64,000 nt of DNA from assembly GCA_946800325.1 (NCBI GenBank), contig OX326956.1:37665082-37729081 (forward strand), given 5' to 3'. Both the position numbers and the translations under genes were made by a program. Positions 18,466-61,361 of this stretch are shown piece after piece. The notes beneath the pieces are model-generated. The model did not search any database. It was not told where the DNA came from and saw only the letters and a list, made by a program, of their open reading frames with translations. How positions within the stretch are numbered: position 1 is the first letter of the stretch; every line of letters starts with the position of its first letter. The DNA comes from Luzula sylvatica. Its lineage: Eukaryota; Streptophyta; Magnoliopsida; Poales; Juncaceae.

Positions 18466-20103
18466 TGATGGGCGGGTTTTTGGCGTGTAAAATTATCGTT
18501 GTATTCGAAAACCCGATTCAATCAACAAAATTTGTAATCTATGTTTGTACAGTGGTAAATGTATAGATTCGTTCCACGGGGAGCAATTGCGTCAAAGATT
18601 AAATCAAAACTAGATGAGAAATAACAAAGAAGATTCACAGAAGGTAGTCCGTTACAACGGAAGTAGACTCCGTTACAACGGACATTAGGGTAATGTTAAC
18701 GCAGGAATTAATATGAAGGTCCGTTACAACGGAGGAAGTTCCGTTATAACGGAAAGAGGTAGTCCGTTATAACGGATAGGAGTAGCGTTATAACGGATTG
18801 GTTGATCCGTTACAACGAACTCTTATGTCCGTTACAACGCACTAGTATGAGTGATATTGAATGCTTTTCCTCGCTGGCCCGTTACAACGGAAGTAAAGTA
18901 CGTTACAACGGAGTACCAACAGACTGAAAATCAGGTACAAACTGAAAGGTCCGTTGTAACGCAAGTTATATTCCGTTATAACGGAAGTTATTCTGGATTT
19001 CTGTTTATATTTTTAGATTGAGGATTGAATTGAAGGTTTCATTTGAGATTTGAACTAAGGGAGATTTAAACTAAGTTCAAGGCAGTAATTAAAAGTAAGA
19101 GATCAAGTAAAAACACTAACAAAGATTCGATTCAAGTAAACAAGAACTAAAGATTCATTAAACCGAGAATTCTTTACACAAATCCAATTCGAATTTAAAC
19201 TACAAGAATTACAAGAAAGGAAAGAAAACACCTAGAGAGATGAAGTGAGCTCCGAGTCTCGTCTTGGATGCCTCCTTTGTTGTTTTGAGATGCTAGTGAG
19301 CTAGACACCTCGCACAACGTGTTCCTTTCGTACCAATCCACCCGCCAATAGAAGAGAGCTTCGTACCGGTCGAGTGAACTCGAGATTGCAAGAAGTCCAA
19401 TTGGAAGAAAGCTCGCGAGTGGAATAGAGTAAGCTTGACTCTTTGCTTGCGCGGATTCGGATGAAGAAAGCTCCACCTTAATCTTCGCAACTCGATCTTC
19501 GTCGAAGTGTAAACCAATTCACCGAATGAAGTGAGCTTTTATTCGGTGATCGATTTTAGAGAATTATCGTTCGTATTTGCAATTCTTGCGTGTTCTTGAA
19601 GGTTCTTGGACTTGCTTAAGAGGGAGAGAGAGAGAGAGAGAATGGGCATAAAAGAGCGTACCCAACTCGTGGCCCTTGTGGTCATATTTATAGCACTCAT
19701 GGAGTCTTCTTATTGGCCACGAGTTGGTGGAGAGGATTGGGGGTAAATAGGTAATTCCCACCAAAGGTAGGTGGGCAGGATAAGGGCTAAGGATTGAGTG
19801 GTTTTCGTGTAGACTTTTGTGTAAGTTTGTATCATGATAATTGTTTGCCTCCCGTCTTATTCATGTACCGAATGTATCGGTATAATATATCGTTTTCACT
19901 CCTCTTGACGTGTTGGAGACAAGTACACTCTCCAAATTCCCAGAAATTCCTTCTAATTCCTGTGATTAAGCAATAAAATACACTTAGTGAAGAAATATTC
20001 ATGTTATCTCAAATATGATTAATAAAGCATATAGAATTGTTCTTCACAAGGGCTAAAATCCCTAAATTAAGCATTAAATTTGTGCCTTATTTGCCTCACA
20101 TCA
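18466..20103 (-). repeat. Gypsy 3' LTR
   Basis: 1638 bp. It holds the palindrome array (18648-18986), a short (GA)9 tract (19623-19640) and a TATA-like CTATAAATATG on the minus strand (19683-19693). Confidence 0.93.
18648..18986. repeat. Palindrome array TCCGTTAYAACGGA, 3' LTR copy
   Basis: Twelve units of the 14-bp palindrome or one-sided variants (CCGTTACAACGC, GCGTTATAACGG, CCGTTGTAACGC) in about 340 bp, spaced irregularly. Each full unit has inverted AACGG half-sites around a 4-bp centre. Confidence 0.9.
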
Positions 20104-20115
20104 AATACCCCCACA
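20104..20115 (-). promoter_or_regulatory. Gypsy polypurine tract
   Basis: The plus strand reads AATACCCCCACA, which is TGTGGGGGTATT on the minus strand. It lies directly against the 3' LTR, where plus-strand DNA synthesis is primed. Confidence 0.8.
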
Positions 20116-22057
20116 CTTAAATCCTTGATCGTCCTCGATCAATTAGAGTGTAAAAGTCAAACATAAGAGAGAATTGCATAAGATTTTGTTGAAGTTATAT
20201 TGTTGGTTCAAAAACTAATTTCACAAATCAAATTGGGGTACTCTTACTTCATCATGATTACTAATATTGAGAGAAATATAGGTTGATCAAATATAGAATC
20301 TATTTCAATAAATTTCACAAATTCGAAGAGTTTAATAGAGCAAATGATCTCAACCGAAAAAGATGATTAAACACCATCATTCAACTCTTTTCACTCTACT
20401 ATTCACAAGGATTATCATGAAAAAGCATTAGTGAAAACCAATTTTTCCGTTTTGCAAAAATCATTTCTTAAATGTAATTTGTCACTTTTAAACCGTTCGG
20501 TACGTTAGTACTTGGTTCATCTTCGATTTCTACTAAATTTTCCCAACTTGCGCTCGATTTTTGAACTCCTTTCCTTTTTATTCTTTTATTTCTTTTCTTC
20601 TTTTCTTTTGTTCTTTTTTATTTCTTTTCTTTTGTTCGTTATTGCTTTTGATGGTCCCCATGTGTGTCCTTTGGGATAACAAGTGGTCATGACTCACACC
20701 ACTCATTACTTAGTAAACCCCATGGATCCGCGCAATCTTTAGCCAACAAGTGGTCATGACTCACACCACTCATTACTTAATCAATCACACGGACTCGACA
20801 ATCGAAAGCGCTTTAATCCGTGATTGTAGAAAACTTTTTCGCATCGACTCTTGATCATGACTCACACCAAGAACCGGCTACTTTGGTTTACTACGACTCA
20901 TGCACCCCTTTAGCCAACAAGTGGTCATGACTCACACCACTCATTACTTAATCAAGGTGCATGAGCTCATCGAATCAAGCCTTGAGCGCAAATTGGTTCC
21001 CGTTAGTGTAATTTCGAATCCCCATGAACGGTCGAGCTCTTTAAGTGCAAATGGTCAAATTTTAGATTCAAGCAAAACTTACTAAATTGGTTCAAACAAA
21101 GCTTTTAAGAACTTCCAAGTTCAAAATGGGTTTATTTATTGAAAATGGTGTGTCATGTAAATCGAGGATTGATCAAATTGTCAAAAAGTCATTAATTTGT
21201 GAAAATATTGATTAGGGCTTGAATCCCCGAAAGAATCTCTTAAAGATTTCAACCACAATTCTTCAAATATTATGTAAAATGGACATTTTGAGAGTAAAAA
21301 TGGTGGTTCGGTGAAAATTCGTTTAAAAACCAACAATCTAATTCAATGAAGTGGAGAAAAATCTTTTTATGCATTTTATGCTTGACTTGATTATTATTGA
21401 TGCTCAGGGTTCAAAAATAATGTCAAAAATTTGGAAAAATTCGATTAGAAGAGGAACATGCCAGAAATTATTCCGTTATAACGCAGTTTAAAGTCCGTTA
21501 CAACGGACATTGAGGTCCGTTACAACGCACTAACTACGTTATAACGGAGAACTAGCCGTAGCAAATTTTGAAAATTCTGAGCAAGTCCGTTGCAACGGAC
21601 ATTGAGTTCCGTTACAACGGACATAGTTCTGGCAAATTTCGTGAATTTACCGTTGCAACGCAATTTCATGTGCTTTTCGTGTCCGTTGTAACGGTATTTT
21701 AACTCCGTTACAACGGAGTTTGCCTTCGTTACAACAGAATGTCTGGCACCAACCAGATTTTCAAATTTCATAGTCCGTTATAACGGACATTGAAGTCCGT
21801 TACAACGGAGTTGCTAGCCAGATCACAATTTTTCAAATTTTCCCTGATTTTTAAATTTTTAATTGGGCTCATACAGGTCAAAGATTGTATGGATTGTATG
21901 TTACCCCCCCACACTTAGAGATTACTTGTCCTCAAGTATAAAGAAATCGAAAATTTCACAAAGAGGGATAATAGAGTGATACAACCTTTGATGCGTGGGC
22001 GTGCCTCCCTCGCTAGCGCTCTTGTTTAACGTCTTGAGCTCGACTTGGCCGAGCTCA
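20116..22057 (-). mobile_element. Gypsy 3' non-coding region
   Basis: About 1.95 kb between integrase and the 3' LTR with no env-like frame. Repeats of AAGTGGTCATGACTCACACC lie at about 20680, 20745 and 20919, with a partial one at 20850. A second palindrome array lies at 21471-21810. A second polypurine-like tract (TTACCCCCCCACAC, 21902-21915) follows. Confidence 0.75.
21471..21810. repeat. Palindrome array TCCGTTAYAACGGA, gypsy 3' region
   Basis: Twelve full or degenerate units, including CCGTTGCAACGG variants, in 340 bp. They are separate from the LTR array but use the same unit. Confidence 0.9.
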
Positions 22058-23458
22058 TCATTGTGAGGTGTTGTCGGGTTCTAGAGCTTGCTCCTCCATC
22101 CACCCGGTTTCGAAGTTTGCATGGTAGTGCTTGAGTCGATGGCCGTTTACCTTGAACGTTTTGTTCGTTTCCTCGCTTCGAATTTCGACAACCCCAAATG
22201 TAGTCACATTGGTGACCACAAAAGGGCTGATCCATCGGGACCGAAGTTTCCCGGGGAAAAGTTTGCGACGAGAGTTGAATAACAACACTCTTTCCCCTAC
22301 TTGGAATTCTTTCTTTTGAATCATTTGGTCATGAAACCTCTTTGCTTTTGCCTTGCACGAGCTCGAATTATCGTAGGCCTCTTGCCGGAATTCCTCTAGC
22401 TCGAGTAATTGAAGCTTACGCGCCGATGCGTCCTTCGGGTAGTCGAGGGCAAATTGCTTGATCGCCCAAAAGGCCTTGTGCTCTAACTCGACCGGTAAAT
22501 GGCACGCCTTTCCGTACACGAGCTTGAAAGGAGTCATACCTATTGGCGTTTTGAAAGCAGTACGGTACGCCCAAAGTGCGTCGCCGAGTCGAGTACTCCA
22601 ATCCTTTCGATTCGGGTTCACTACCTTCTCTAGAATGGATTTGATCTCGCGGTTTGAAACCTCCGCTTGGCCGTTTGTTTGAGGATGATACGCGGTTGAG
22701 GTTCGATGGCTCACATGGTATTTCTCGAGGAGGCTTTGGAGATATCGATTGAAAAAATGGGAGCCTCGATCGCTTATAAGAACTCTTGGTATGCCGAATC
22801 GTTGAAAGATATTCTTCTTCAAAAAGTCCACCACCGTTTTCGAATCCGCATGCTTGGTTGGTACCGCCTCCACCCATTTTGTCACGTAATCTACACACAA
22901 CAAGATGTAAGTATAGCCAAAAGACGATGGAAACATGCCCATGAAATCAATGCCCCAAACATCGAATGGTTCACACACATAGATTGAATTGAGGGGCATT
23001 TGATTTCTACGGCTCAAGTTCCCCGTCTTTTGGCAATTTCCACAACCTTTCACAAAGTTCGCAACGTCTTTATGCAAGGTTGGCCAATAAAATCCACATT
23101 CTTGTACCTTGTGTGTGGTACGTGCGATACCGAAATGTCCACCACATTGTAATGTATGACAAAAAGAAAGAATAGATTGTACCTCACTTTGGTGCACACA
23201 TTTTCGAATTACTTGATCGGTGCAAATTCGGAATAAGATCGGGTCCTCCCAAACGTAGAATCGCGCGTTACTTTTCATCTTGTCGCGTTGCGCCTTGGAG
23301 AAGCTCGGGGGAAATTTCTTCGTGACGATGTAGTTTGCTAGGTCGGCGTACCATGGTGCTTCGACTTGGGCCGCGAGAACGTGTTCCTCGGGAAATTCTT
23401 CGCAAATCGGAACGAGATCTTCGATCTTCAATGGAAGCCGACTCAAATGATCCGCCAC
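22058..23458 (-). pseudogene. Gypsy integrase (pol C-terminal part)
   Basis: An open 466-codon stretch starting inside ADHLSRL, the end of RNase H. It then has the H2C2 zinc-binding region ([10 protein letters not shown] ... [14 protein letters not shown]) and the integrase core with catalytic residues in GIDFMG (Asp), ISDRGSHF (Asp) and GQAEVSNRE (Glu). The C-terminal region ends with a [10 protein letters not shown] block. All catalytic blocks are present. In the source element it is the end of a single gag-pol frame; here it is cut off from RNase H by a stop at 23519-23521, so the annotated Met is not a true start. Confidence 0.9.
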
Positions 23459-23518
23459 GAGATTGTCGCATCCCTTTTTGTCCTTGATCTCGAGGTCGAA
23501 TTCTTGAAGAAAAAGGAT

Positions 23519-23782
23519 TCATCGGAGCAATCTCGGTTTGCACTCCTTTTTCTTCATCAAATGTCTCAACGCGCCGTGGTCCGAGAAGATTATCACCTTC
23601 GTACCTAAAAGATAAGAACGAAATTTCTCCAATGCAAACACAATTGCGAGGAGTTCCTTTTCGGTGGTGGTGTAGTTTCGTTGGGCATTGTCGAGAGACC
23701 TCGAGGCGTACGCGATGACGTGGGGGGTCTTTTCCTTCTCTTTGGCCAAGTACCGCCCCCACACTTGTGTCGCTTGCGTCAC
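23519..23782 (-). pseudogene. Gypsy RNase H segment
   Basis: It carries VIAYASRSLDNAQRNYTTTE and KELLAIVFALEKFRSYLLG, typical gypsy RNase H blocks. It follows a frameshift at a G run (23722-23727) that separates it from RT. It ends in a TGA at 23519-23521 where the family has a Trp codon. It is in the same frame as the integrase downstream. Confidence 0.85.
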
Positions 23783-26699
23783 ACATTATCTCGAATGGTA
23801 GCTCCCAATTTGGCGACTTGATGATTGGCGCGGAGCAAAGCCTTCCCTTGAGATTGTTGAAAGCCTCCTTGCACCTTGCGTCGAACTCGAATTTTGCATC
23901 TTTTTGGAGAAGTTGGCACATCGGTTGCGAGATTTTCGAGAAGTCTTTGATGAAGCGCCTATAGAATCCTGCATGGCCGAGAAAGGATCGCACGTCTTTC
24001 ATCGTCTTTGGATACGGAAGCGTCTTGATCACGTCGATTTTTGCCTTGTCGACTTCCATTCCTTTCTCCGAGATTAAATGACCTAAAACAATTCCTTCGC
24101 TCACCATGAAGTGGCATTTCTCAAAATTTAAGACAAGGTTAGATTCAATGCACTTCTCGAGTATTTGGGACAAGTGATCTAGACACGAGTCGAATGAGTC
24201 CCCAAATACCGAGAAATCGTCCATAAAGACCTCAATAAATTTCGAAATGTAATCACTAAAAATCGAAAGCATACACCTTTGAAAAGTTCCCGGTGCGTTG
24301 CAAAGGCCAAAGGGCATTCGGCGGTACGCAAAGGTACCAAACGGGCACGTGAATGTGGTCTTCTCTTGATCTTCGGGTGCGATCGGTATTTGAAAGTAGC
24401 CCGAGAATCCATCGAGGAAGCAATAAAACGGATTTCCCGCGAGTCTTTCTAGCATTCGATCGATGAATGGAAGCGGAAAGTGGTCCTTTTTCGTCGCCTT
24501 ATTGAGCCTTCGGTAATCGATGCAAACCCGCCACCCGTTTTGAACTCGAGTCGGTACTTGATCGCCTTCATCGTTCTCAACAATTGTAATCCCCGTTTTC
24601 TTTGGTACTACGTGTATGGGTGAGACCCATCTTGAGTCTGTAATGGGGTAAATGATCCCCGCGTCCAACAACTTGATCACCTCTTTTTTCACTACTTCCA
24701 TCATGGGCGGATTGAGCCGCCTTTGAGGTTCGCGCGATGGTTTTGCTCCGTCCTCGAGAAGGATTCGGTGTCTGCACATGGAGGGGGAGATGCCCGGAAT
24801 GTCGGAGAGTGTCCACCCGAAAGCCTTCTTATTCCTTTTGAGCACTTCGAGGAGTTTTTCTTCTTGCTTCCTTGTTAGATTCGAGGCGATTATCACCGGC
24901 AAAGTCTCCGCTTCATCCAAAAACACGTATTTTAGTCCAAAAGGTAGTGATTTTAGATCTAACCTTGGAGCTTGTTCGGTGGAAGGTGGAGTTCTCTTCA
25001 TTGGAATCTCGAGGTCTCTTAGAAAGAGTGCTTGATCTATGCTTTGTTCTTCTTCCAAATCCGACTCGATCTCGAATGTAGGATTGTTATATCCTTCAAA
25101 TTCTTCGAATAGTGGGTTCGAGTTCCATTGAAGGTTTTCGAATGAGCTATCCATGACCTCTTGTACACAATCGTCGATCACGTCCATAGCGCTTAAGTTG
25201 AGTGTACCTACAATGGGTTCCTTTAGTTTTTCAAAAATATTGAATTTGATTACCTCATCATCGAACTCCATTGTGATCTCTTCCGCGTGTACATCGATCT
25301 TTGTGCGTGCCGTCTTCAAAAATGGCCGTCCAAGGAGAATCGGGGTTGAATCGCTATTCCCTTCATTCATGTCCAAAACGTAGAAGTCCGCGGGAAATAG
25401 CAACCCATTAACGGTTACTAACACGTCCTCGATCACCCCAACCGGTCGAGTCGTGGACCGATCGGCCAGTTGGATCACAACTTGAGTATCATCAAGGGGG
25501 CCTAGATCGAGATTCTTGAATATCGAGTATGGCATCACATTTATTGAAGCGCCCAAATCAAGCATGCATTTCGGCAATTCATGTTGCCCGATTTTGCATG
25601 GAATGGCAAACATCCCCGGATCCTTGTGCTTTTGGGGGAGTCTCAAGATTGCCGTAACTCTCTCCCCCACACTTATCAATTCGTCCCCTTTTGTCTTTCT
25701 TTTATTCGTGCATAATGACTTGAGGTATTTTGCCAAACGAGGCACTTCCTTGATTGCTTCGAGTAGAGGTATGTTTACCTCTACTTTCTTTAAGATGGCA
25801 AGCACGTCGTTGTTCGACTCGATTGGCTTTGGGAGACGACTCGGGAAAGGTGGCTTGACATGAGTCGATTCGGGTTCTAGTTCTCGAGTTGGTATCTTCG
25901 TGGCTTGAGTCGAACTCTCTTTTGGTACCGGTACCTCAAGCTCCTTTTCTTCTTGTACCTCCTTGCTCTTTGAACTTTCACCCACCTCTTTACCGCTTCG
26001 GAGCGATATTGCGTTCACATGCCTTTGCTCGGAAGGAGCCAACGATTGAGATTGGAGTCGAGATGTACCTTGAGATTCGATTACGTTTACTCGAGTGGCG
26101 ATTTGGGTGAGTTGGGTCTCCAAGTTACCCACATGGCGATTTGCGTTCGAAACCTCTTGCCTTACGCTTGAGATATCTTGCTTTACCACCCCAAACTCTT
26201 GCTTGATACTTGAGATATCTTGTTTTACCACTCCAAACCCTTGCGTAAGTGAGTCCACGTTTTTATTCATACTTTGCAACAACTCCATTATTGTTTTCAT
26301 GTCTTGATTTGGTTCTTGTGTTTGGGTTGGTTGATGAATCATTTTAGTTGCATTCGGGTGTTGGTACGTGGCCGGTTTTGCAACCGCTTGTCGATATGGG
26401 TCGGGTTGAGCATTGTTGGGGTTCGACCAACTAAAGTTAGGATGGTTGCGGATATTCGGATTATACGAGTTCGAGGCGTCGAATTTCTTGTAAACGGCAT
26501 TTGTATCTTCGATCACACTCGGGCACTCATCGGTGTGGTGGGTATTTGCGAGGCAAACCCCACATGTTTTCGTTTCCTCCTTGCCCAAAGCCTTCATGAT
26601 GATCTCGAGATTGTTGTTAAGCATGTCGACATTGAGGTCGCTACACGCATTAACTCGGTATTCAACGTTCCGCCTTGATTGAGAATTGGTTGCCATCAC
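23728..26699 (-). pseudogene. Gypsy zinc knuckle, protease and reverse transcriptase
   Basis: A frame of about 990 meaningful codons (it stays open to 23268, but past the shift it is out of frame). The zinc knuckle is C46-X2-C49-X4-H54-X4-C59. Repeated GVVKQDISS phrases (about 156-180) suggest a coiled coil. The protease has DLGASINVMP at 381, Athila-style DLGAS rather than DSGA. RT blocks include WRVCIDYRRLN, DGFSGYFQI and FMDD near residue 826. It is joined to gag by a shift at a C run (26745-26752). Confidence 0.9.
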
Positions 26700-26712
26700 T
26701 TCGAGTAGCTTC

Positions 26713-27492
26713 TTAATCTCTTCGAGATCTTTGTTCGCGATGCTCCCCCCCCGCGGATGCGTTGAGGAATTGGCTCTCCGAGTAACCTAGCCCTTGTATA
26801 AATTGCTCGTATAGGTAATGGATTGCGACATTGTGGCTTGGACATTCCTCCATCAAACGGTTGAATCGATCGTAATACTCGTGGAGAACCTCGTTTGGCT
26901 TTTGTGTGATTGCTAGAAGTTCTCGCCTAATTGCCGCCAATCTCGAATGCGAGTAGTATTTCTCCTTAAAACGCTCGGCTACTTCATTGAAGTTGAGGGG
27001 TCCTCGTAGGTTGTAGAACCATTCTTTCGGCCCTTCACCTAGTGAATAAGGAAAAATAAGAAGTAAAATATCGTTAAATGCCACATAATTTGCATAAATG
27101 TTTAGTTGAATCTTGAAATCTTTCAAATGTTTGTGTGGATTTTCGGTAGCTTCGCCATGAAAGATGGGTAAAGAGCCTATGATGCTCGGATCGGCTTTAA
27201 AGTTTGGTATGTTCGGCCTAATAAAATTGTAGTTATCTTCTACGATATTTGGGGCCACTAATTCCTTTAATGTTTTTGGTCTTGGAACCCTAGTTTCATC
27301 CCCCATGTTTGAATTTAAATGAGTAGAGAGAGAAGAAAAAGTTTGAGTTTGAAGTTGAGGTTCGTCTTGATCTTTTTGTGTCGGTTCCTTGCTCTTCTTA
27401 GAGCTCTTGTTCCTTCTTTCGATCTCCTTGACAAACGGAAGTAATTCTCCTTTTCGTGATCTTGTGTTGTGCATAAAGCCTTCTTCCTTCAC
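26713..27492 (-). pseudogene. Gypsy gag
   Basis: 259 codons with a retrotransposon gag core (about 98-235: ADPSIIGSLPIFHGEATENP ... EWFYNLRGPLNFNEVAERFK ... LHEYYDRFNRLMEECPSH). The last 12 or so residues, after NASAGG, are out of frame because of the C run at 26745-26752. A nearby preceding Met is possible; MKEEGF at 27492 is the most upstream in-frame start. Confidence 0.85.
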
Positions 27493-27582
27493 CTACATTG
27501 TCACAAAAGAAACAAAGAAGTGAGTAATCAATGTCATGAATTTAAATCTTCAAATTTCGATCTAAAATATTGACTTAAACAC

Positions 27583-27604: not shown

Positions 27605-27787
27605 TTGATGAGTGGATTTTTGGCGTGTAAAATTATCGTTGTATTCGAAAACCCGATTCAATCAACAAAATTTGTAATCTATGTTTGTACAGTGGCAAAT
27701 GTATAGATTCGTTCCACGGGGAGCAATTGCGTCAAAGATTAAATCAAAACTAGATGAGAAATAACAAAGAAGATTCACAGAAGGTAG

Positions 27788-28126
27788 TCCGTTACAACGG
27801 AAGTAGACTCCGTTACAACGGACATTAGGGTAATGTTAACGTAGGAATTAATATGAAGGTCCGTTACAACGGAGGAAGTTCCGTTATAACGGAAAGAGGT
27901 AGTCCGTTATAACGGATAGGAGTAGCGTTATAACGGATTGGTTGATCCGTTACAACGAACTCTTATGTCCGTTACAACGCACTAGTATGAGTGATATTGA
28001 ATGCTTTTCCTCGCTGGTCCGTTACAACGGAAGTAAAGTGCGTTACAACGGAGTACCAACAGACTGAAAATCAGGTACAAACCGAAAGGTCCGTTGTAAA
28101 GCAAGTTATATTCCGTTATAACGGAA
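27788..28126. repeat. Palindrome array TCCGTTAYAACGGA, 5' LTR copy
   Basis: The same twelve units as in the 3' LTR with few substitutions. It lies downstream of the predicted TATA box, so in the RNA leader. Confidence 0.9.
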
Positions 28127-28759
28127 GTTATTCTGGATTTCTGTTTATATTTTTAGATTGAGGATTGAATTGAAGGTTTGATTTGAGATTTGAACTAAGG
28201 GAGATTTAAACTAAGTTCAAGGCAGTAATTAAAAGTAAGAGATCAAGTAAAAACACCAACAAAGATTCGATTCAAGTAAACAAGAACTAAAGATTCATTA
28301 AACCGAGAATTCTTTACACAAATCCAATTCGAATTTAAACTACAAGAATTACAAGAAAGGAAAGAAAACACCTAGAGAGATGAAGTGAGCTCCGAGTCTC
28401 GTCTTGGATGCCTCCCTTGTTGTTTTGAGATGCTAGTGAGCTAGACACCTCGCACAACGCGTTCCTTTCGTACCAATCCACCCGCCAATAGAAGAGAGCT
28501 TCGTACCGGTTGAGTGAACTTGAGATTGCAAGAAGTCCAATTGGAAGAAAGCTCCCGAGTGGACTAGAGTAAGTTTGACTCCTTGCTTGCGCGGATTCAG
28601 ATGAAGAAAGCTCCACCTTAATCTTCGCAACTCGATCTTCGTCGAAGTGTAAACCAATTCACCGAATGAAGTGAGCTTCTATTCGGTGATCGATTTTACA
28701 GAATTATCGTTCGTATTTGCAATTCTTGCGTGTTCTTGAAGGTTCTTGGACTTGCTTAA

Positions 28760-28762
<3 letters not shown>

Positions 28763-28830
<68 letters not shown>
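28763..28830. repeat. (GA)34 microsatellite in the gypsy 5' LTR
   Basis: 68 bp here against 18 bp at the same place in the 3' LTR (19623-19640). This 50-bp difference accounts for the whole length difference between the LTRs. Confidence 0.95.
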
Positions 28831-28834
<4 letters not shown>

Positions 28835-29298
28835 GGCATAAAAGAGCGTACCCAACTCGTGGCCCTTGTGGTCATATTTATAGCACTCATGGAGTCTTCT
28901 TATTGGCCACGAGTTGGTGGAGAGGATTGGGGGTAAAGAGGTAATTCCCACCAAAGGTAGGTGGGCAGGATAAGGGCTAAGGATTGAGTGGTTTTCGTGT
29001 AGACTTTTGTGTAAGTTTGTATCATGATAATTGTTTGCCTCCTGTCTTATTCATGTACCGAATGTATCGGTATAATATATCGTTTTCACTCCTCTTGACG
29101 TGTTGGAGACAACTACACTCTCCAAATTCTCAGAAATTTCTTCTAATTCCTGTGATTAAGCAATAAAATACACTTAGTGAAGAAATATTCATGTTATCTC
29201 AAATATGATTAATAAAGTATATAGAATTGTTCTTCACAAGGGCTAAAATCCCTAAATTAAGCATTAAATTTGTGCCTTATTTGCCTCACATCAAAAAC

Positions 29299-32459: not shown

Positions 32460-33209
32460 TTAAATTATCTAATATGCTAGAATGATTGATGCCGATCATA
32501 TCGATATAAAGAACTCAAAATTCCGAGTTGTGTAGCCAAAGTTACCACGAAAACAAAATCAGCAAACAGAAATTATTCCGTTGCAACGCACCATAGTCCG
32601 TTACAACGGAACCCCTGTTTCTTCTACTCCGTTACAACGGAAATCATGTCCGTTACAACGCTATTTATTCCGGAGTTTGGCCAAAATTGCCAGAAACATG
32701 TCCGTTACAACGCAACCTAGGTCCGTTACAACGGACAGACTCGTGAACAACTTCCGTTACAACGGATCTTATCCGTTACAACGGACTCCTAAAGACACCA
32801 TAGGCATCCCCGCATCCTCGTATCACATACAAGGTCCGTTACAACGGAACCCATGTCCGTTACAACGGACTATACGTTTATTCACAGTCCTCCTCACATC
32901 CCTGCATCATATACATGGTCCGTTACAACGGAACTCCAAGTCCGTTATAACGGACTATGTGATTTTCGCAGAAATTCCCAATTTTCTGTATCGTATACAG
33001 TGTCCGTTACAACGGATCAACCAATCCGTTGTAACGGACTATGCGATTTTTCTGCTGTTTCGTCTGTTTTCGCTCGTTTCCAAAACGATTATTCATGAAA
33101 CCTTTTCATGAACATTCCTAGATACTCTCAATCAACTTTTGGGTATTTTGATAACCCGTGCGTATATCGAATATACGACTATGATTCGACCCTCGAATCG
33201 ATGGCGATC
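32460..33209 (-). mobile_element. Copia A leader
   Basis: Untranslated leader between the primer site and the deletion scar. It aligns with copy B 60713-61610 and holds the palindrome array. Confidence 0.85.
32577..33039. repeat. Palindrome array TCCGTTAYAACGGA, copia A leader
   Basis: Fourteen units in about 460 bp, most perfect (TCCGTTACAACGGA), some one-sided (CCGTTACAACGC). Many come as pairs about 19-24 bp apart, separated by longer non-palindromic spacers. Confidence 0.92.
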
Positions 33210-33221: not shown

Positions 33222-33222
33222 C

Positions 33223-34226
33223 TGTTGGGTATTCTACCCGGCCCCTGGCCCGCGCAGCGAATATGTAGGCCCGGTCCTGTTCCCCGATTCCCGAGATCAC
33301 GCCATGATTTCGAAGGGTACGATGCAATTAAGAAGATTAGATTCATACCAGTGCAAAATTGATTGCACACGAAGGGTTGATTGCTATTCTTCTTTCGTGT
33401 CACGTTGGTGACAATCCGCACGTCCCACACCACGCGTCTTTCACCGTTCGTTGCCGGTTCACTCGAATTCGTCTCCGACTGAAATTACTCGTCCGAATCG
33501 ATCACAACCGAGAGAGCCCCAATTGTTGCTCCTCTACATGTATCCACCTTGACTCGTAAGACGTCGGTCGCAGATGCAACTGCTTAGACGATGCACCGGC
33601 GAACTTGCTCGATTGTTTGATTCTCTATACCGGAAAACACCTTTTCACGGTTTCTCTCTTTTACACCCTTTCACTCTCTAGAAATTTGTCTCACAATTTT
33701 CTGGAATATATTGAATGAATTGGACTGAATCAACCACCAGAGATGAGAGAGAATTATCCTATTTATATCACATAGGATTAGGATGGACCAAAAGACATGT
33801 ATATCCAATATACACTCTTTCACACAGAAAGTTGCATGTATCTGTCCAGTATTCTGTCCATACGAAATTGGTAAATTCCTCTGACAGAAAATCAACCAAC
33901 ACAAAAGTTGTAGATAATCTTATTATCTACACGACCCAATTTGGCCTGGCCCAATTGGAGTTCTTATGCAAAGGTTATGACTGTTTAACTAACTGTATAT
34001 CATACTGTTGCACCCTTTCGGTATTTCATAGAAACGACACTGATACTTCGTTCATATGAAATATATTTCTATATGAAGGTTGTAGATAATCTTATTATCT
34101 ATCTAACCCAATTTGAACCATTCAAATTGGATCTTCCTACTGAAAGATATGACCACGAATATACGCTTACATTCGTTTATCCTTGTGTACACTTTTACGG
34201 TTGATCCTGAAACTGTGTTTCCTTCA
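33223..34226 (-). repeat. Copia A 5' LTR
   Basis: 1004 bp, with TATA-like GATATAAATAGG on the minus strand (33758-33769). Flanked by the second copy of target duplication GTTCG. Confidence 0.92.
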
Positions 34227-34507
34227 GTTCGTTCGAACTAACTGTCGGGTCTGTTCGAACGAATCGCTACGAGTATAAAATGGTTTTATACATATTCATT
34301 CCAGGGAGTGGTTCGTTCGAACTAACCTTTGTGTTCGTTCGAATGTAATTTGGAATTAACACATAAATGAGAGAAAGAGTATATTGGATAAAATGGTTTT
34401 ATACATATTCATTCCATGGTGCGTTCCAACTAACCTCATGCTGGAAGTGTATATTGGATATACACAACCTTTGACCCAATCCTTATCCTATTTTAGTATA
34501 AATATGA

Positions 34508-34568
<61 letters not shown>

Positions 34569-36839: not shown

Positions 36840-36898
<59 letters not shown>

Positions 36899-46151: not shown

Positions 46152-46159
46152 GGGACGCG

Positions 46160-51800: not shown

Positions 51801-53872
51801 AAAAATACAAATTCGGATGTGTTAGTCTTTAATTTTGGAGTTTTATTTTAGGAAAACATGATAATTAAGTATTTTACTCGTTCTAGACAGAAATCTTTGA
51901 ATTGTTTTGAAAAATATGATATTTCATATTTCTGAAGGTGTTAGACTTCACTGTTTGCGTTTTTTGTGAAATATTTAAAAATATATAAAAATTCGCATGC
52001 GTCAATCTTAATTTTTGGAGATTTTATGATGGAAACATGAAAATTAAGTATTTTGGTCATTTTAGACATCAATTTTAGCATTTATTTGAAAAATATGATA
52101 ATTGGTTTTTTTGAAGGTGTTAGTCATCACTTTTTTATTTTGTGCAAAAAATATTGAAAAAATAGAAATTCACATGTGTTAGTCTTCAATTTTTGAGTTT
52201 TTTTAAACATGAAAATTAAGAATTATGCTCTTTCTAGGAAGAAATCATGGAATTTTTATGAAAAATACGATAATTGATATATTTTTAAAGGTGTTAGCCT
52301 TCACTTTTTGCATATTTGAAAATATTTGAAAAAAATAGAAATTCGCATGTGTTAGTCTTTAATTTTATAGGTTTTTTTTAGTAAAACAGAAAAGTGAAGT
52401 ATTTTGTTCGTTCAAGACATCACTTTTTGCGTTTTTTGCAAAATATTTGAAAAAAGTAGAAATTCGCATTTGTGAGTCTTTAATTTTGAGTTTTATGATG
52501 AAAAAATGGAAATTAAGTATTTTGGTCATTTTAGACATCAATTATGGCATTTATTTGAAAAGTATGATAATTGGGTTTTTTTATGGTGTTAGACGTCACT
52601 TTTTTTATTTTTGGCAAAAAATATTGAAAAAATAGAAATTCGCATGCGTTAGTCTTCAATTTTTGAGTTTTTTTAACATGAAAATTAAGTATTATGCTCG
52701 TTCTAGGAAGAAATCTTTGAATTGTTTTGAAAAATATGATAATTGATATTTTTAAGTGTGTTAGCCTTCACTTTTTGCATATTTGCAAAATATTTTCAAA
52801 AAATAGAAATTCGCATGTGTTAAACCTAAAAAATTTAGGTTTTTTTAGTAAAACAGGAAATTTAAAGATTTTGTTCGTTCTAGACAGTAATCATTGAATT
52901 ATTTTGAAAAATATGATAATTGATATTTTCGAAGGTGTTAGACTTCACTTTTTACGTTTTGTGCAAAATATTTGAAAAAATTAGATATTCGCATTTGTTA
53001 GTCTTTAATTTTGGAATTTTATGATGGAAACATGGAAATTAAGTATTTTGGTCATTGTAGACATCAATTTTGGCATTTATTTGAAAAGTATGATAATTGT
53101 TTTTAAGGTGTTGGATTTCACTTTTTAATTTTTAGCAAAAATTATTGAAAAAATAGAAATTCGCATGTATTAGTTTTCAATTTTTGACTTGTTTTTTAAA
53201 ACAAGAAAGTTAAGAATTATGCTCGTTCTAGGACGTAATCATGTAATTTTTATGAAAAATATGATAATTGATATATTTTTAATGGTGTTAGACTTCACTT
53301 TTGCATATTTGCAAAATATTTGAAAAAAAATAGAAATTCGCATGTGTTAGTCTTAAATTTTATAGGTTTTTCGAATAAAACAGGAAAATAAAGAATTTTG
53401 TTCGTTCTAGACAGAAATCTTTGATTTTTTTTTGAAAAATAAGATCATTGATATTTTTGAAGGTGTTAAACTTCACTTTTTCTTTTTTTGTAAAATAAAA
53501 TAAAAATAGAAATTTGCATGTGTTAGTCTTCAATTTTGGAGTGTTTATGATTGAAACATGAAAATTAAGTATTTTGGTCATTTTGGACATCAATTTTGGC
53601 ATTTAATTGAAAAGTGTGATAATTTGTTTTTTTTGAGATGTTAGACTACACGTTTTTATTTTTGGCAAAAATTATCAAAAAAATAGTAATTTGCATGTGT
53701 TAGTCTTCAATTTTTGAGTTTTTTTTACACATGAAAATTAAGTATTATGCTCGTTCTAGGAATTAATTTGGGAATTGTTTTGAAAAATATGATAATTGAT
53801 ATTTTTAAGTGTGTTAGCCTTCAATTTTTGCATATTTGCAAAAAAATTTAAAAAAATACAAATTCGGATGTC
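48889..53872. repeat. About 175-bp satellite, middle block with 526-bp trimer
   Basis: Continuation of the left block after the LINE. From about 52500 three monomer types alternate strictly. B ('ggtcattttagacatcaattttgg') lies at 52524, 53050 and 53576; C ('atgctcgttctaggaagaaatc') at 52694, 53219 and 53747; A ('gttcgttctagacagaaatc') at 52873 and 53400. Each type recurs every 525-528 bp. Earlier in the block the order is less regular, with deletions (for example B to B is 469 bp at 52055-52524). Confidence 0.93.
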
Positions 53873-53877
53873 TTAGT

Positions 53878-54910
53878 TGTTGGGGAATATCCTCGACCCC
53901 GGGCCCGCGCAGCGGAATGAAGGCCCTGTCCGATTCCCCGATTCCCGAGATCACGCCACGACTTCGAGGGTACGATGCAATAGAATGATAGATTCATACC
54001 GGTGCAAAATTGATTGCACTCGAAGGGTTGATCGCTGCCTTCTATCTCCTGTCACGTTGGTGACAATCCGCGCGTCCCACACCACGCGTCTTTCACCATT
54101 TGTTGACTACGCCGGTTCAATCGACTTCGTCTTCGTGCGTCCAAGCGTTTCTACCGTCTTTCTCACTCGAGTCGATCACAATCGAAGAACCACAAACGTC
54201 GTTCCTCTAGTTGTATCCACGTTGATTCGTAAGACGTCGGTCGCGGATGCACCTGCCTAGACGATGCACCGGCGAACTTGCTCGATCTAATCGATTCTAT
54301 ATCTCTCCAGAAATTCTTTTCTCGATTTCTCTCTCTTCGCACCTTTTCACTCACGAAAGATGAAATCTGAATTTGCTCTTTTTTCTTGTGTATTAGGCAG
54401 AATAATTACTTAGAAATTTCATTATTAGGAGAGAGAAAGTATCCTATTTATATATAATAGGATCAGGATTAGCCAAAAGGCATGTATATCCAATATACAC
54501 CATTTCACACAGAAAACTGCATGAACCTGGTCAGTATTCTGTCCAGACGAAATTGATAAATTTCTCTGACAGAAAATCACCTAACATGAAAGTTGTAGAT
54601 AATCTAATTATATACAAAACCCATTTTGGCCCAGACCAATTGGAGTTCGTATGAAAAAGTTATGACTGTTTTACTAACTATATGTCATACTGTTGCACCC
54701 TTTCGGTATTTCACATAAACGACACTGATACTTCGTTCATATGAAATATATTTCTACATGAAGGTTATAGATAATCTAATTATCTATATAACCCAATTTG
54801 AACCATTCAAATCGGATTTTCCTACTGAAAGTTATGGCTACAAATGTACGCTTACATTCGTTCATCCACGTGTACACTTTTACGGTTGATCCGAAACTGT
54901 ATTTCTTTCA
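53878..54910 (-). repeat. Copia B 3' LTR
   Basis: 1033 bp, with TATA-like TATATATAAATAGG on the minus strand (about 54448-54461). The polypurine tract AGTGGGAGAC (minus) abuts it at 54911-54920. Confidence 0.93.
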
Positions 54911-56069
54911 GTCTCCCACTCAATTTCAGATCTACCTAAAAGGTACTCATGCATATCCAATACACACGATTTTAGAGAATATAGCTCGCGTATCAAATAC
55001 CAAGCTATGCACATCCAATGTGCCGATTTTATGATCAAGCCCGACTTAGTACGACTCGTTGTGTGACCATGTAGGTTCAATTAACGATGGCAGTAGGTTG
55101 TTTCCAATGCCTACAAGCTCATGAGCGGGATCTAGTCACTCCATCATAGCTACCCATGTTAAACGAATAATGATTGTGATCATTGTGCCTATCTCGAATA
55201 GCGGTTACTAGTTCTCTTGTTTGCGATATCCGTTAATCAAAAGGCATGGTAATAGTCATCCTTATAATTTGATTAACTACACTTATTCCCTGATTCCGAG
55301 TTGATTTAACAAATTTCAATCGATATTATAATCATTAATATCATTTACTCTGGCCAGAGATTTCGTTAATCGACTCATCGAGCGGCGCCTAAGAGATATC
55401 TCTTCCTTTCGGAACAAACAATTCCTATCTTGGAGACTCACATTGAATTCCGTGTTTCGGACAATGCCCAATGATGACCCTTTTAGCTCCTTGTTACGGT
55501 GAGCGTAAGATCATATCAAAGCATTGTGTTACGCACGTAACGCAATCAATGATCCCCTCAAGTATGAAGAACATAAAACCCCATCCGTCGTAAGTCCATC
55601 TATAATGACTAAAGCATGTCATTGTCTCGCGGCTTCGGTCATATCCAATACATGTAACCTAACATATATCTACGTTTCCGATTCGACAAGCACCTTGTCC
55701 CATGATTAGCAAAACATAATCATCTCCTCGGCAAACGTACTAGTGTACGAGTTCAGTCTATTATCTAATAATAGAAATGCTTCTCTCTTAAGCAAGCTAA
55801 TTCGCGACTAGGGATGTTTGGAAATGACACTTTAAGTGTGACGGTTTTGCTGCACATAGTCCTCAACCATGTTGACGTCCACACAAGTTCAAATCAAGGT
55901 TATGTAATCATATTACACAACCCAGCACACAATTTTCATATAAGATAGATGCAAAAATGAAAAATTTTAAAATTCTGAAATTGCATTACTGTAAGATAAG
56001 TTTGGGGTGATACAACGTTTACTAATCTATTAGACTAATCTCGTCCTACGAAACTATCGTTTTAGATAA
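54911..56069 (-). mobile_element. Copia B 3' untranslated region
   Basis: About 1.15 kb, non-coding, shared with A and C; around 55710 it shows the intact target of the gypsy insertion in copy A ('gattagcaaaacataatcatctcc'). Confidence 0.85.
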
Positions 56070-57551
56070 CTAACTACTCTCTTCCTCCTCTAGGTATCTC
56101 AAACCTATAGCTTTCGCATGATAATCTTGCTTAGCTTGCGAGAGTGGCTTAGTAAACGGGTCCGCAACATTCCTGTCAGTATCAATCTTTTCAATGATCA
56201 CATCTTTCTTTTGCAAAATCTCACGGATCAAGTGAAATTTTCTGAGTATGTGCTTGGAGCGGTGATGTGCCCTCGGTTCCTTGGACTGTGCTATTGCTCC
56301 ATTATTGTCGCAATACACAACTACAGGTTCCGAGATACTCGGGACTACACCAAGTTCGGTCACAAACTTCTTGATCCATACCGCCTCCTTTGCAGCTTCG
56401 GAAGCCGCAATATACTCCGATTCAGTTGTATAGTCTGCTATCGTGGGTTGTTTGGAACTCTTCCAAACTACCGCTCCACCATTTAGACAAAACACGTATC
56501 CGCTTTGTGATCGAAAGTCATCGACATATGTTTGGAAACTGGCGTCGGTATATCCATTGATGACCAACCCGGATGTCTTTCCACCATAAATTAGAAATTG
56601 ATCCTTAGTTCTTCGTAAGTACATAAGGATGTTCTTAACCGCGATCCAATGCATATCCCCTGGATTAGATTGGTAACGCGAAATGACGCTCAATGCATAC
56701 GACACATCGGGGCGCGTACAAATCATGGCATACATAATTGATCCAACCACCGAAGCGTATGGAACAATACTCATCGCATTCTTATCTTCGCTCGATGTCG
56801 GACATTGAGCTTTAGAATACGATATGCCACTCGACATTTGAAGAAGTCCTTTCTTCGAATTTTGCATTGAAAATCGTTTCAACACTTTGTCGATGTACAT
56901 GCTTTGACTCAAGCCGAGTAACTTCTTGGATCTATCTCTATAAATCCTCACGCCTAATATATAAGCGGCCTCGCCCAAATCTTTCATAGCGAAACGAGTA
57001 TTTAAATACTTCTTAACATCCGTTAGCATCGGAATGTCGTTTCCTATGATCAAGATGTCGTCTACATATAGTACAAGAAATACTACACGGCTCCCACTAA
57101 CCTTCTTGTATACACAAGGTTCTTTTACGTTTTTCACGAAATTATATTCTCGTATAACTTCATCGAAACGTATGTTCCAACTCCGAGAAGCTTGCTTCAA
57201 TCCATAAATGGATCGTTGCAACTTGCACACTTTATCCGGACTCTTTGAATCGACAAAACCCTCGGGTTGTGTCATGTACACATCCTCTTCTAAGTTCCCG
57301 TTAAGGAATGCGGTTTTGACATCCATTTGCCAAATCTCGTAGTCATAATACGCAGAGATAGCAAGTAAGATCCGTATGGATTTAAGAATTGCTACGGGAG
57401 AAAACGTTTCTTCATAGTCTACACCATGAATTTGTTTGAAACCTTTCGCCACAAGCCGTGCCTTATAAGTGTTCACATTCCCATCCATGTCGGTCTTCTT
57501 CTTGAAGACCCACTTACATCCCACTGGTTTTAACCCCGGGAGGTGGATCAA
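56070..57551 (-). pseudogene. Copia B pol: reverse transcriptase and RNase H
   Basis: 493 codons. RT begins at the PVGCKWVFKKKTDMDGN block, with MDVKTAFLNGNLEEDVYM and catalytic YVDD at 162-165. RNase H follows: GYTDASFQT (Asp 336), TESEYIAASEAAKEAVW, VVYCDNNGAIAQ and NVADPFTKPL. No stop interrupts it. It is separated from the gag-integrase frame only by a 1-bp shift in a T run at 57528-57531, so the Met at 57551 is not a real start; in the family gag-pol is a single frame. Confidence 0.9.
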
Positions 57552-60042
57552 TCAAGTTCCAAACTTGATTATCGTACATGGATTGAATCTCGGATTTCAT
57601 GGCAGTTTGCCACTTATCGGAATCCTCGCTTTTCATAGCCTCGCGATAAGATGTCGGTTCATCATCTATGAATTCGACTTCATCGTCATTTGCCATGATA
57701 AAACCATATCGTATAGGCTCTTGATGAATCCTACCCGATCTACGAATAGCGCCTTGTGCACTTGACTCCGAATCCTCAACATTTGAGGAAATCGGATCAA
57801 CGTTCATCGGTTCAACATTCGTTTGCGGGTCTCGAATTTCTTCGAGATCTATTTCAGTCCCATTCACTCGCCTAGAGATAAAGTCCTCCTCAAGGAAGAT
57901 TCCTCTTCGAGCTACGAAAACTTTATTTTCGATTGGAAGATAGAAATAATATCCTTTTGTTTCCTTAGGATACCCGACAAATAAACATTTTTCAGATTTG
58001 GGTTCGAGCTTATCCGAAATCAATTTTCGAACATATGCTTCACAACCCCAAATCTTAACAAAAGACAACTTTGGAGAATTTCCAAACCACATCTCATATG
58101 GCGTCTTTTGTACCGATTTAAAAGGTATGCAGTTCAATAAGAAAGCCGTTGTCTCTAGGGCATATCCCCAAAACGATTTTGGAAGGGAAGTTTGACTCAT
58201 CATGGATCGAACCATGTCCAACAAGGTCCGATTCCTCCTTTCGGACACGCCATTCCATTGTGGCGTTCCTGCCGGAGTCCATTGTGGAACTATTCCACAA
58301 TCTTTTAGATGATCTTCAAACTCATAGCTCAAATATTTGCCACCTCGATCCGATCGAATGGCTTTAATTTTCTTGCCAAGCTGATTTTCAACTTCGTTTT
58401 GAAACTCTTTGAACTTTTCAAAGGTCTCCGCTTTAGTACGCATCAAATAGATATATCCATATCTACTATGATCGTCCGTAAACATAACAAAGTATCGATA
58501 GCCTCCTCTTGCCTCGATGCTCATCGGTCCACACACATCGGAATGTATGAGTTCCAATAGATCATTGGACCGCTCTCCGACCTTGGAGAACGGCGCCTTA
58601 GTCATCTTGCCAAGCAAACAAGATTCGCAATTCCCAAATGAATCCAATTCAAATGAGTCTAGCATTCCATCTTTATGGAGTCTAGCAATGCGTTTCTCAT
58701 TCACATGACCGAGACGACAATGCCAAAAGAAAGTCTGATTATCAACTTTAGATTTAATCCTTTTTGCATTAACGTTATATATGGACTTATTATTTCCGTG
58801 ATCGAAATCCAACACATAAAGACCATTTTCTAACAGAACATTTCCATAGATAATAGAATCCTTACATATCGAAAACTCATTATTCCTAATAACGAATTCA
58901 TAGCCATCATTGGCCAGTTTCGACACACTTATTATGTTCTTACATAATGTCGGTACATAATAACAATTATTTAGTACTAATATAAGTCCATTAGGCAAAG
59001 TCAAATTGACTACTCCTACGGCAAACGCAGCAACTCTTGCTCCATTCCCGACGTGTAGATCGACTTCACCCTTTTCCAACCTACGACTATTTTGAAGAAC
59101 CTGCATATTTCGACAAATATGAGTCCCACAACCGGTATCCAATACCCAATTAGTCATAGTTGAAATATTAACTTCAATAACGTTAATACCTGAGAGGCCG
59201 GTCACTGAAACCGCCTTGCCCTTCTTTACCTCCTCGAGGCAAGACTTGCAATCGCGCTTCCAATGTCCAGCCTTGTGACAATGAAAGCACGTCTCATCCT
59301 TGGATTTCTCCTTTCCCTTTTTATTCGGTTTCGAACGTTTCTTAGACGAACCGCCTTTGGACTTTGATCTCTTACGATCCTTATTCTGAATTGTGAGAAC
59401 ATTTCCGGCAACTCTTGCCCTGTTCTCTCCGGACGACTTCAACATCTCCGATTCAAAATTCTTGAGCATTCCGTGAAGCTCAAGGATCGTCTTATCCATC
59501 GAATGCATGTGATAGTTAGTCATGAACGGAGAAAACATTGGAGAAAGTGCACACAAGATCAAATCTTGTTGCATAATCTTCGACAATTTCTCTCCTAGCC
59601 TCTCTAGACGGTCTATGAGAGCTTGCACCTTCAAAACGTGAGTGCTAACCGAAGACCCCGAAGGCATCTTGCAGTTTACCAACTCTTTGAGCGTACTGAA
59701 CCTTTCAATACGCTCCTGCTCTTGGAACATTTCCTTGAGCACAACGTTTATCGAGTATGTATCCGTGTCCTCAAACTGCTTTTGAAGACTAGCGTCCATA
59801 CATGCCAACATGAGGCACGTAACGTCATTTGAGTCCTTCATAAGTTTCTCAAACGCGGCCGTTTCATCGGCCGTAGCATCGGGGCCCGGTTCTACTATTT
59901 TCGTATCCAATACGTGACTCTTGCCCTCTTGCCTGAGAACTATTCTCAGGTTTCGATGCCAGTCTAAGTAGTTCCGACCCACTAGCTTTTCCTTTTCTAA
60001 TACCGATCTAATCGATAAGGTGCTGGTGTTACTAGAAGACAT
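57514..60042 (-). pseudogene. Copia B gag, protease and integrase
   Basis: 842 codons from the natural start (MSSSNTSTLSIRSVLEKEKL). Gag core; zinc knuckle C252-X2-C255-X4-H260-X4-C265; protease DTG at 302-304 (WVLDTGCGTHIC). Integrase zinc-binding H441, H446, C472, C475; catalytic Asp 502 (HSDVCGP), Asp 565 (RSDRGG) and Glu 601 (NGVSERRN). The first part of the RT-linker follows before the frame runs off at the T-run shift. Gag forms the virus-like particle, protease processes the polyprotein, and integrase inserts the cDNA. All catalytic residues named are present. Confidence 0.92.
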
Positions 60043-60825
60043 GTTCTACAAATGAAATAAAAGATTGATTACTAACGTTGCGTACTTATCTTATAGGGCT
60101 TATATGATGATTATATGATAGTGTTATTTTATCGAATCGATAACCCTCATACCGACACGGGACTCCAAGTCCATAACACTCAAGACCCATATTTTACGAT
60201 CCTCCCATAAGTGACTATGGCCGACAAATAAGATCTCGATATTTTAGGTAGGATTAAATCCAATCGTATCCAATACGACTCTCGTTCCTTTATAGAATTT
60301 CGGTGACGAATCGTATCCAATACAATCCATGTTCCGTGTGTGTATTCTTTCTATGCCCCGAACTCCAATCGGATTGGCTTGGACGGTTAAGTCACAACCA
60401 TATCCATCGTATCGTTTAATTGAACTACTCACGTGCCCGACTATGGCCTGAAACCACGTGAGTCCCCAATTAACGCTTACCATCCGCACCAATATATACA
60501 GTAGTACGTACCCGACTATGGCCTGAAACCACGCACTATGTCATATCAATCTCGATGGTTGTGGATATGGAAGGCATTTCCATGACTTAAATATTATGAG
60601 GGATTATGCCATTGCATGTTTCTAAATTCGTGACATAATCATATTATATCACTTTCACAAGATTTTCAATATGCATATGATTTTATTTGGGAGTCTAATT
60701 ATTCTAAATAATTATCTAATTATATGCTAGTATGATTGATGCCGATCAAATCGATATAAAGAACTCAAAATTCCAAGTTATGTAGCCAAAGTTATCACGA
60801 AAACAAAATCAGCAACCAGAAACCA
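60043..60825 (-). mobile_element. Copia B leader, gag-proximal part
   Basis: Untranslated. Contains repeated phrases: 'cccgactatggcctgaaaccacg' at about 60437 and 60511, and 'cgtatccaatac' at about 60266 and 60312. No palindrome units in this part. Confidence 0.75.
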
Positions 60826-60826
60826 G

Positions 60827-61361
60827 TCCGTTGTAACGCAACATAGTCCGTTACAACGGACCTCCAGTATTCTTGGCACTCCGTTACAACGGAACTCCAG
60901 TCCGTTACAACGCTATTTATTCCGTAGTTTGGCCAAAATTGCCAGAAACATGTCCGTTATAACGCAACCTAGGTCCGTTACAACGCTATTTTCTGCAAAC
61001 CATTGTCCAAATTTCCAGAGACCAGTCCGTTATAACGCAACATAATGTCCGTTACAACGGACCAACTGTGTAGAGATCTGTTACAACGGACCATGTCCGT
61101 TATAACGGACTCCAAAAGACACCCTAGGCATCCCCGCATCCTCGTATCATATACAAGGTCCGTTACGACGGACTCCAAGTCCGTTACAACGGAATATGCA
61201 TTTTTCACAGTCCTCCTCACACTCCCGCATCCTATACAGGGTCCGTTACAACGGACTCCAAGTCCGTTATAACGGAATATGTGATTTTCGCAGAAATTCC
61301 CAATTTTCTGTATCCAATACAGTGTCCGTTACAACGGACTAACTAGTCCGTTATAACGGAC
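60827..61361. repeat. Palindrome array TCCGTTAYAACGGA, copia B leader
   Basis: Sixteen units in about 535 bp, equivalent to the copia A array but with gained, lost and altered units (for example CCGTTACGACGG at about 61161). Pair spacing is similar, with non-palindromic spacers between pairs. Confidence 0.92.

Follow-up and report, generated by a model that had tools for sequence, protein, structure and literature searches.

Why should one short palindrome stand in dense arrays in retrotransposons of unrelated families? The question is raised by a stretch of 64,000 nucleotides from Luzula sylvatica (C1:37665082-37729081), which was analysed at its full length and is referred to here as the window. 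It contains three long terminal repeat (LTR) retrotransposons, all on the minus strand, namely a gypsy element that is nested inside a copia element, copia A, and a separate copia element, copia B. Their arrays are understood here, with a probability of about 0.6, as a single cis-regulatory DNA module of the repeated-motif kind known from Sireviruses, which would have been exchanged between element families and would be read by a host protein.

Arrays in the window

The unit is a palindromic pair of half-sites with the core CGTTR-YAACG, and its usual form is TCCGTTRYAACGGA. With up to four mismatches allowed within the array regions, 66 units are found in five arrays:

18648..18985, minus strand, array of 12 units in the gypsy 3' LTR
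21472..21809, minus strand, array of 12 units inside the gypsy element, between integrase and the 3' LTR
27788..28125, minus strand, array of 12 units in the gypsy 5' LTR, downstream of TATA
32577..33038, minus strand, array of 14 units in the copia A leader
60827..61360, minus strand, array of 16 units in the copia B leader

An earlier note on this DNA had described about 66 units in five arrays with copia and gypsy carriers, and its places, counts and element calls are all confirmed. A search of both strands with up to two mismatches gives 125 matches in the window, where shuffled sequence has 0.63 on average and 4 at most, and the exact core CGTTRYAACG occurs 62 times, with 0 occurrences outside the arrays.

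The domains found are Retrotrans_gag, RVT_1 and integrase for gypsy, and Retrotran_gag_2, RVT_2 and integrase for copia. The copia arrays sit between the primer-binding site (PBS) and gag or, in the gag-less copia A, before the remaining polyprotein. The gypsy LTR arrays are close to the 3' end of the LTR, downstream of its TATA box, and the remaining gypsy array is internal, on the stretch from integrase to the 3' LTR.

Genomic abundance and a third carrier

Across the whole assembly, a search space of 445,347,901 bases, TCCGTTAYAACGGA has 14,940 exact matches on the forward strand and 14,809 on the reverse, with 0 and 0 for the reversed control. The number of distinct genomic sites lies between 14,940 and 29,749 (AT-centred sites match both strands), and the centre types of 199 units examined below would put it at roughly 24,000. 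A genome-wide count had been suggested in the earlier note as a check on its view, and the very large number agrees with its proposal that the unit is selected.

Twenty stretches of the genome, numbered with an L, were fetched for comparison. Seventeen were picked at palindromes in the first 2.73 Mb of C1 and cover the 100 matches listed except one near 1,123,448, and three (L138-L140) were not picked in this way. L138 has four units beside a piece of gypsy LTR, and L139 and L140 have 0. In this sample, which is biased by the choice of palindromes, 284 of the 289 units (up to two mismatches) fall in arrays of at least four.

At least three families carry the arrays. The third carrier is an LTR in L123, L136 and L137, which is about 1.5 kb in L136 and L137 and shortened in L123. 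It starts with TGTTGGTTCAAA, ends with ACAACA (L136) or CCAACA (L137) and has the target-site duplication (TSD) TATAG in L137. The array in this LTR has 16-18 units (up to three mismatches) and ends some 40-100 bp upstream of CTATAAATA, the TATA box. This LTR is inserted in a copia polyprotein at integrase in L136, and three GGGGGAG tracts lie within 170 bp before it in L123. The third carrier looks like a Sirevirus, a name that rests on the multiple polypurine tracts (PPTs) and the palindromic boxes upstream of TATA, its own polymerase not having been seen. In L123 (4466-5018 and 8018-8833), about 3 kb separates a Sirevirus-like LTR array from a beta-amylase-like frame (Glyco_hydro_14) downstream of it.

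Conservation of units and spacers

Units, spacers and flanks were compared between aligned arrays of 12-22 units each, the copia arrays having 14 to 22. The pooled differences combine non-independent pairs and exclude the two centre bases:

Nine copia leaders: units 297/6294, spacers 1594/9862, flanks 906/7767
Eight gypsy LTRs: units 97/4033, spacers 950/4768, flanks 518/6672
Four gypsy internal arrays: units 29/936, spacers 116/1167, flanks 88/1397
Three Sirevirus-like LTRs: units 41/574, spacers 221/857, flanks 122/587

In all four totals the spacers diverge more than the flanks, and the units less than both, which agrees with the earlier note's proposal that the unit is selected and is common to copia and gypsy. 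The cleanest pair, the window gypsy LTR and L121, is a comparison of subfamilies and differs at 7/144 positions in units, 75/169 in spacers and 41/236 in flanks, with 11 of 11 spacings retained within 1 bp. A gypsy internal comparison, with the centre excluded as in that pair, gives 9/144 for units against 37/170 for spacers. Between copia A and copia B the units differ at 8/196 positions (4/168 without the centre) and the spacers at 48/264 (Fisher p 2e-6 and 1e-7), and with a badly aligned stretch removed the spacers still differ at 37/247 (p 1e-4 and 8e-6). The retention of CG between the same two elements is 54/56 in units, 8/12 in spacers and 30/35 outside the array. The centre bases are as variable as the spacers (copia 211/1038, Sirevirus-like 28/94), and the opposite trend for flanks is seen between copia A and L128, where the flank (62/213) exceeds the spacer (61/264).

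Among near-identical copies the units are unprotected. The gypsy LTR pair of the window differs at 3/145 unit and 2/169 spacer positions, the gypsy internal arrays of L122 and L134 at 3/168 and 0/219, and the gypsy LTR-pair control, with 3/168 in units against 25/1467, gives no unit protection post-insertion. Hence, the constraint acts between replicating lineages and not after insertion. The copia polymerase is decayed in L124, L125, L127 and L135, which have a DNA match of 73-76% mid-element and no sense-strand frame of 150 amino acids, and against copia A the units differ at 2/162 positions in L125, 2/144 in the second L127 array and 2/144 in L135. These four elements form a non-autonomous copia subfamily whose leader and LTR are nearer to copia B.

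Half-sites and a possible MYB reader

The composition of the unit was taken from 199 units in 13 arrays, providing 398 half-sites. The centre is RY in 198/199 units, positions 3-6 and 9-12 are near-fixed (193-199 of 199 each), C stands at position 2 in 140/199 and G in 45/199, and position 13 is G in 179/199. The units are oriented with transcription in all carriers, and position 2 is more variable than position 13.

One candidate for the reader is a host MYB protein, either R2R3 or three-repeat, that would recognise (C/T)AACNG half-sites; a three-repeat MYB would couple the elements to G2/M. Sections of the published accounts give (C/T)AACNG as the R2R3 MYB site (PMC7145699) and AACGG as the MSA core bound by MYB3Rs (PMC9409031). 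AAC is intact in 381/398 half-sites and is preceded by a pyrimidine in 397/398, while YAACNG fits 302/398 halves and 193/199 units retain at least one such half. However, the pattern of degeneracy is the reverse of that of a MYB: the base after AAC, which a MYB leaves free, is G in 389/398, whereas the next base, a G that a MYB requires, is G in 319/398. Moreover, WER is described in part of PMC7145699 as reading AACNGC, whereas the sixth base here is mostly A, and the RY centre also follows from transitions alone. The MYB reading of the earlier note is therefore supported by the (C/T)AAC half-sites and not by their degeneracy, and a MYB reader is possible but doubtful. Methylation of the AAC cytosine is described as cutting the affinity of WER more than 45-fold; here that cytosine is part of a CG, and binding could thus vary with methylation.

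Helical spacing and a possible role as RNA

Unit-to-unit distances cluster at 19-23, 29-34, 41, 49-53, 62-64 and 74 bp. Taken jointly, the four array types fit best to a period of 10.45 bp (p 0.028 with only the long spacing classes jittered, 0.003 with all jittered), and a class-wise null gives a phase p of 0.006-0.008 for the window's three array types by themselves. Duplication accounts for part of the copia tandem periods (73 and 83-84 bp), and the class-wise null allows for it.

The arrays might instead act as RNA, either as leader hairpins or dimer contacts with a part in packaging, dimerisation or translation, or as small-RNA precursors. In favour of this, TATA precedes the copia and gypsy arrays, their sense strands fold far below shuffles (z -12.6 for the gypsy 5' LTR array and -11.5 for copia B), and GT centres, in which a G.U wobble is tolerated, exceed AC centres by 113 to 21 on the sense strand. 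Sirevirus palindromes are also said to attract small RNAs (Bousios 2016, as cited in a passage of PMC10760457). However, any palindrome folds, and the antisense strand of copia B also lies far below shuffles (z -10.7). The 1194 pair cells include 107 that are broken, 22 with a wobble and 3 that are compensatory, one array is upstream of TATA, and helical spacing is a property of DNA. A function as RNA is thus unlikely, and it is the reading as DNA that these patterns would favour.

Descent of the arrays

The earlier note had held that copia and gypsy share only the palindrome. Plain local alignment with the units masked does give little spacer homology between families (p 0.01-0.39), but a different result is obtained when the flanks are anchored on the units. 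The best score for copia against the gypsy internal array is then reached by 0/2000 and 1/2000 shuffles and by 0 to 0.08% of random real anchors, and p is 0.001-0.003 after the two bases beside each unit are removed. For several pairs the best score was as high or higher when the anchors were set in the opposite orientation, and both orientations were pooled afterwards. Copia and the gypsy internal array thus share spacer sequence with p <=0.003, and the claim that only the palindrome is common to them is not supported. One shared piece has 18 bases, of which 15/18 match in inverted orientation:

21622..21639, plus strand, spacer segment beside unit 21608, containing TTCTGGCA, with 15/18 letters common to copia A and B
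32683..32700, minus strand, spacer segment adjoining unit 32701, containing TTCTGGCA, common to the gypsy internal array

There are four copies of TTCTGGCA in the 64 kb, all within arrays or at their edge; the count is unremarkable (shuffle mean 1.76, with 12/100 shuffles reaching 4) and only the placement is notable. ATAATTTCTG follows the last unit in both the gypsy internal and the copia A arrays. A TTCTG box lies once or twice in each array at exactly 5 nt from the edge of a unit, in copia (2/3 copies), in the two gypsy arrays and in the Sirevirus-like one. It was first noticed in the comparison of copia with the gypsy internal array, and the independent checks are confined to the gypsy LTR (p 0.0005-0.001) and the Sirevirus-like array (p 0.06-0.09). 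Flank sharing between the gypsy LTR and copia is weak (maximum p 0.01 and 0.09 with shuffles, 0.02-0.30 with edge bases removed) and that between the gypsy LTR and the gypsy internal array depends on the test (p 0.76, then 0.02 with edge bases removed). The gypsy LTR and Sirevirus-like arrays have a common spacing run of 21/22-23-20-51/52-21/22.

These results bear on pure convergence, in which each family would have gained the palindrome independently and the same host factor would have rewarded it. Convergence would fit the conservation of units in all families, the little that masked local alignment finds between them, and the near-identical motifs of very divergent Sireviruses noted in a passage of PMC2829016. 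It is at odds with the unit-adjacent spacer pieces common to copia and the gypsy internal array and with the spacing run common to the gypsy LTR and the Sirevirus-like array. The spacer pieces make the transfer of segments likelier than convergence alone, which is improbable. Segments of array have probably moved between families, judging from these pieces, and the spacers would have drifted afterwards. That the transfer ran from Sireviruses to the others is a guess that follows the known occurrence of such boxes in Sireviruses. The earlier note had regarded alignment through the spacers as the mark of one copied segment with no selection on the unit; transfer of a segment is the likelier origin of the copia and gypsy internal pieces, and selection on the unit is supported. 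A neutral minisatellite of slippage-expanded palindromes without function would suit the copia tandem periods (73 and 83-84 bp) and the copia unit number of 14 to 22, but it is very improbable, as homogenisation would preserve spacers too, yet these diverge some 3 to 9 times more than the units, and the gypsy LTR spacing lengths persist though the spacer letters change.

The proposed module

The exchanged module would thus be carried by at least three LTR-retrotransposon families, namely copia, Athila/Tat-like gypsy and Sirevirus-like copia. A host-encoded sequence-specific DNA-binding protein, probably a dimer or a side-by-side pair, would sit on many of the units along a single face of the helix, and once bound may raise the transcription of the element or shield it, perhaps from silencing. 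The module would pass between families via recombination or template switching, following which the spacers would drift fast and the units and their helical spacing would be held. No ATG frame of more than 83 amino acids is found in the gypsy 3' region, nor one of more than 79 in the copia B leader, and this lack of a long frame counts for a host factor rather than one private to the element.

Several observations weigh against such a module. The units of copia A and B are only slightly better conserved than the leader outside the array (8/196 against 27/298, p 0.047), the first L127 copia array differs from copia A at 20/168 unit positions, and L124 retains just two single units (up to two mismatches). 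The helical test is moderate and, like several of the tests, post hoc; copia spacings derive partly from tandem duplication, and off-phase spacings (24, 69) exist in copia copies. The sense-strand bias in centres, 113 GT against 21 AC among 199 units, is the same in all four array types and is not explained by the binding of a symmetric DNA dimer. The placement of the copia and gypsy arrays implies that they would be transcribed, leaving room for a role as RNA. Finally, sharing of the Sirevirus-like array with the others is weak (maximum p 0.03-0.99 by pair).

Comparison with known systems

The earlier note had seen in the palindrome an undescribed system, which is too strong, as palindromic motif arrays are known in Sireviruses (PMC2829016). 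The relevant passages of that paper describe the repeated-motif (RM) boxes as high-copy palindromes, 8-32 per element, in noncoding DNA (the LTR and also the linker before env), and list multiple PPTs and palindromic boxes upstream of TATA as Sirevirus traits. The present arrays are similar in having at least eight palindromic copies in noncoding DNA (12-22 units per array), and in L123, L136 and L137 the array is upstream of TATA, with three copies of the PPT in L123. In contrast, those passages report RMs only in Sireviruses, whereas here the unit of the Sirevirus-like LTR is also carried by a gypsy element (RVT_1, Retrotrans_gag) and by a copia without a PPT cluster. The core here is CCG..CGG and theirs is CGG..CCG, although 1/13 Sirevirus RMs is also without this signature, and the copia leader and gypsy LTR arrays are downstream of TATA. 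The 3' region of copia B has two purine runs of at least nine, at 55789 and 55410, none beside the LTR, and the gypsy element has two GTGTGGGGG tracts about 1.8 kb apart. What sets the array apart from the RM boxes is the core order, the array position in copia and gypsy, and the sharing across superfamilies; those passages also mention neither a helical spacing nor a TTCTG box.

VANDALs are DNA transposons, and the leader of Drosophila gypsy holds a natural cluster of 12 Su(Hw) sites. A host MYB, NtMYB2, reportedly drives the plant copia element Tto1 through U3 boxes that are said to be neither long palindromic arrays nor shared across superfamilies. The VANC/VANDAL system of Arabidopsis, as excerpted from PMC5735166, has a short, dense, one-orientation motif in the noncoding DNA of a transposable element that evolves as tandem repeats, and VANC6 motifs occur also in the unrelated element AT9TSD1; unlike the present case, the motif is read by the element's own protein, whereas here the ATG frames reach at most 83 and 79 amino acids. 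For Su(Hw), part of PMC9917439 describes a reporter with 12 copies of the gypsy sites, and the likeness lies in some 12 clustered sites of an LTR element and a host zinc-finger reader, with insulator and barrier activity there. It differs in being a single family with another motif in another host. Both are working analogues and not families that contain this module.

Scans for pairs of units gave 17 stretches in viral contigs and 96 in prokaryote contigs. The densest carriers of the core outside are 21-bp periodic CGTTRYAACG repeats, mostly from Treponema and uncultured bacteria (e.g. L050, L072, L025), and on inspection of four stretches (L063, L072, L103, L105) the bacterial and viral repeats were judged unrelated to the plant elements. 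No protein relatives of the copia and gypsy elements were found in viral contigs, and a literature search with 12-14-mers of the unit found no use as a retrotransposon motif.

Other features of the window

The remaining parts of the three elements are placed as follows:

18466..20103, minus strand, gypsy 3' LTR, 98% identity to 27606-29293; TSD GTTTT at 18461-18465
22061..27492, minus strand, gypsy gag and pol frames (Retrotrans_gag, RVT_1, integrase)
27606..29293, minus strand, gypsy 5' LTR; TATA near 28875-28883, PBS start 27603
33223..34228, minus strand, copia A 5' LTR; partner LTR 16659-17664
57517..60042, minus strand, copia B gag-to-integrase frame
61624..62614, minus strand, copia B 5' LTR; partner 53878-54912, PBS TGGTATCAGAGC at 61622-61611

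The gypsy PBS starting at 27603 is tRNA-Asp-like. The two gypsy LTRs, otherwise 98% identical, have TC/AG runs of very different lengths (28759-28831 and near 19620-19641). Copia A (29294-33222) is without the stretch that matches copia B 58883-60709 (gag), and its leader joins the later polyprotein directly. A diverged repeat of about 177 bp, with 71-79% matches in tandem-repeat rows, forms long arrays at 37700-40214, 48894-53877 and 62615-63994, on both sides of copia B, and is also found in L137 (8909-9278); it is possibly a satellite of the holocentric-plant kind. A tandem duplication of about 520 bp with 98.8% identity lies at 40478-41514. The window also has a UGT72-like gene, for which the closest among the matches listed (best 120 of 3334) are from Carex rostrata (75%) and Rhynchospora pubera (73%); this one gene would point to a sedge as the probable host. 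Rfam and tRNA scans of the window gave no match.

Biological meaning

Regulatory arrays of retrotransposons are usually seen as private to a family, whereas here one unit is common to copia, gypsy and Sirevirus-like elements. A tentative extension of the exchanged module, put forward with less confidence than the module itself, is that the cassette is a shared good of genomic parasites. An array, perhaps first of a Sirevirus, would have been captured by gypsy and by a second copia, such that some 20,000 units would now be addressed to one host DNA-binding protein, with the spacers diversifying to escape homology-based silencing. Units and helical phase that are fixed, together with spacers that change faster than their surroundings, are as expected if the spacers do escape in this way. 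The question is thereby opened of whether the parasites in one genome compete for, or trade access to, the same host factor. Moreover, the array is a natural selection experiment that spells out letter by letter what the reader needs (CGTTRYAACG, with a phase near 10.4 bp), which narrows the search for the protein. For the host, some 15,000 to 30,000 exact sites could titrate the factor or spread its binding sites near genes.

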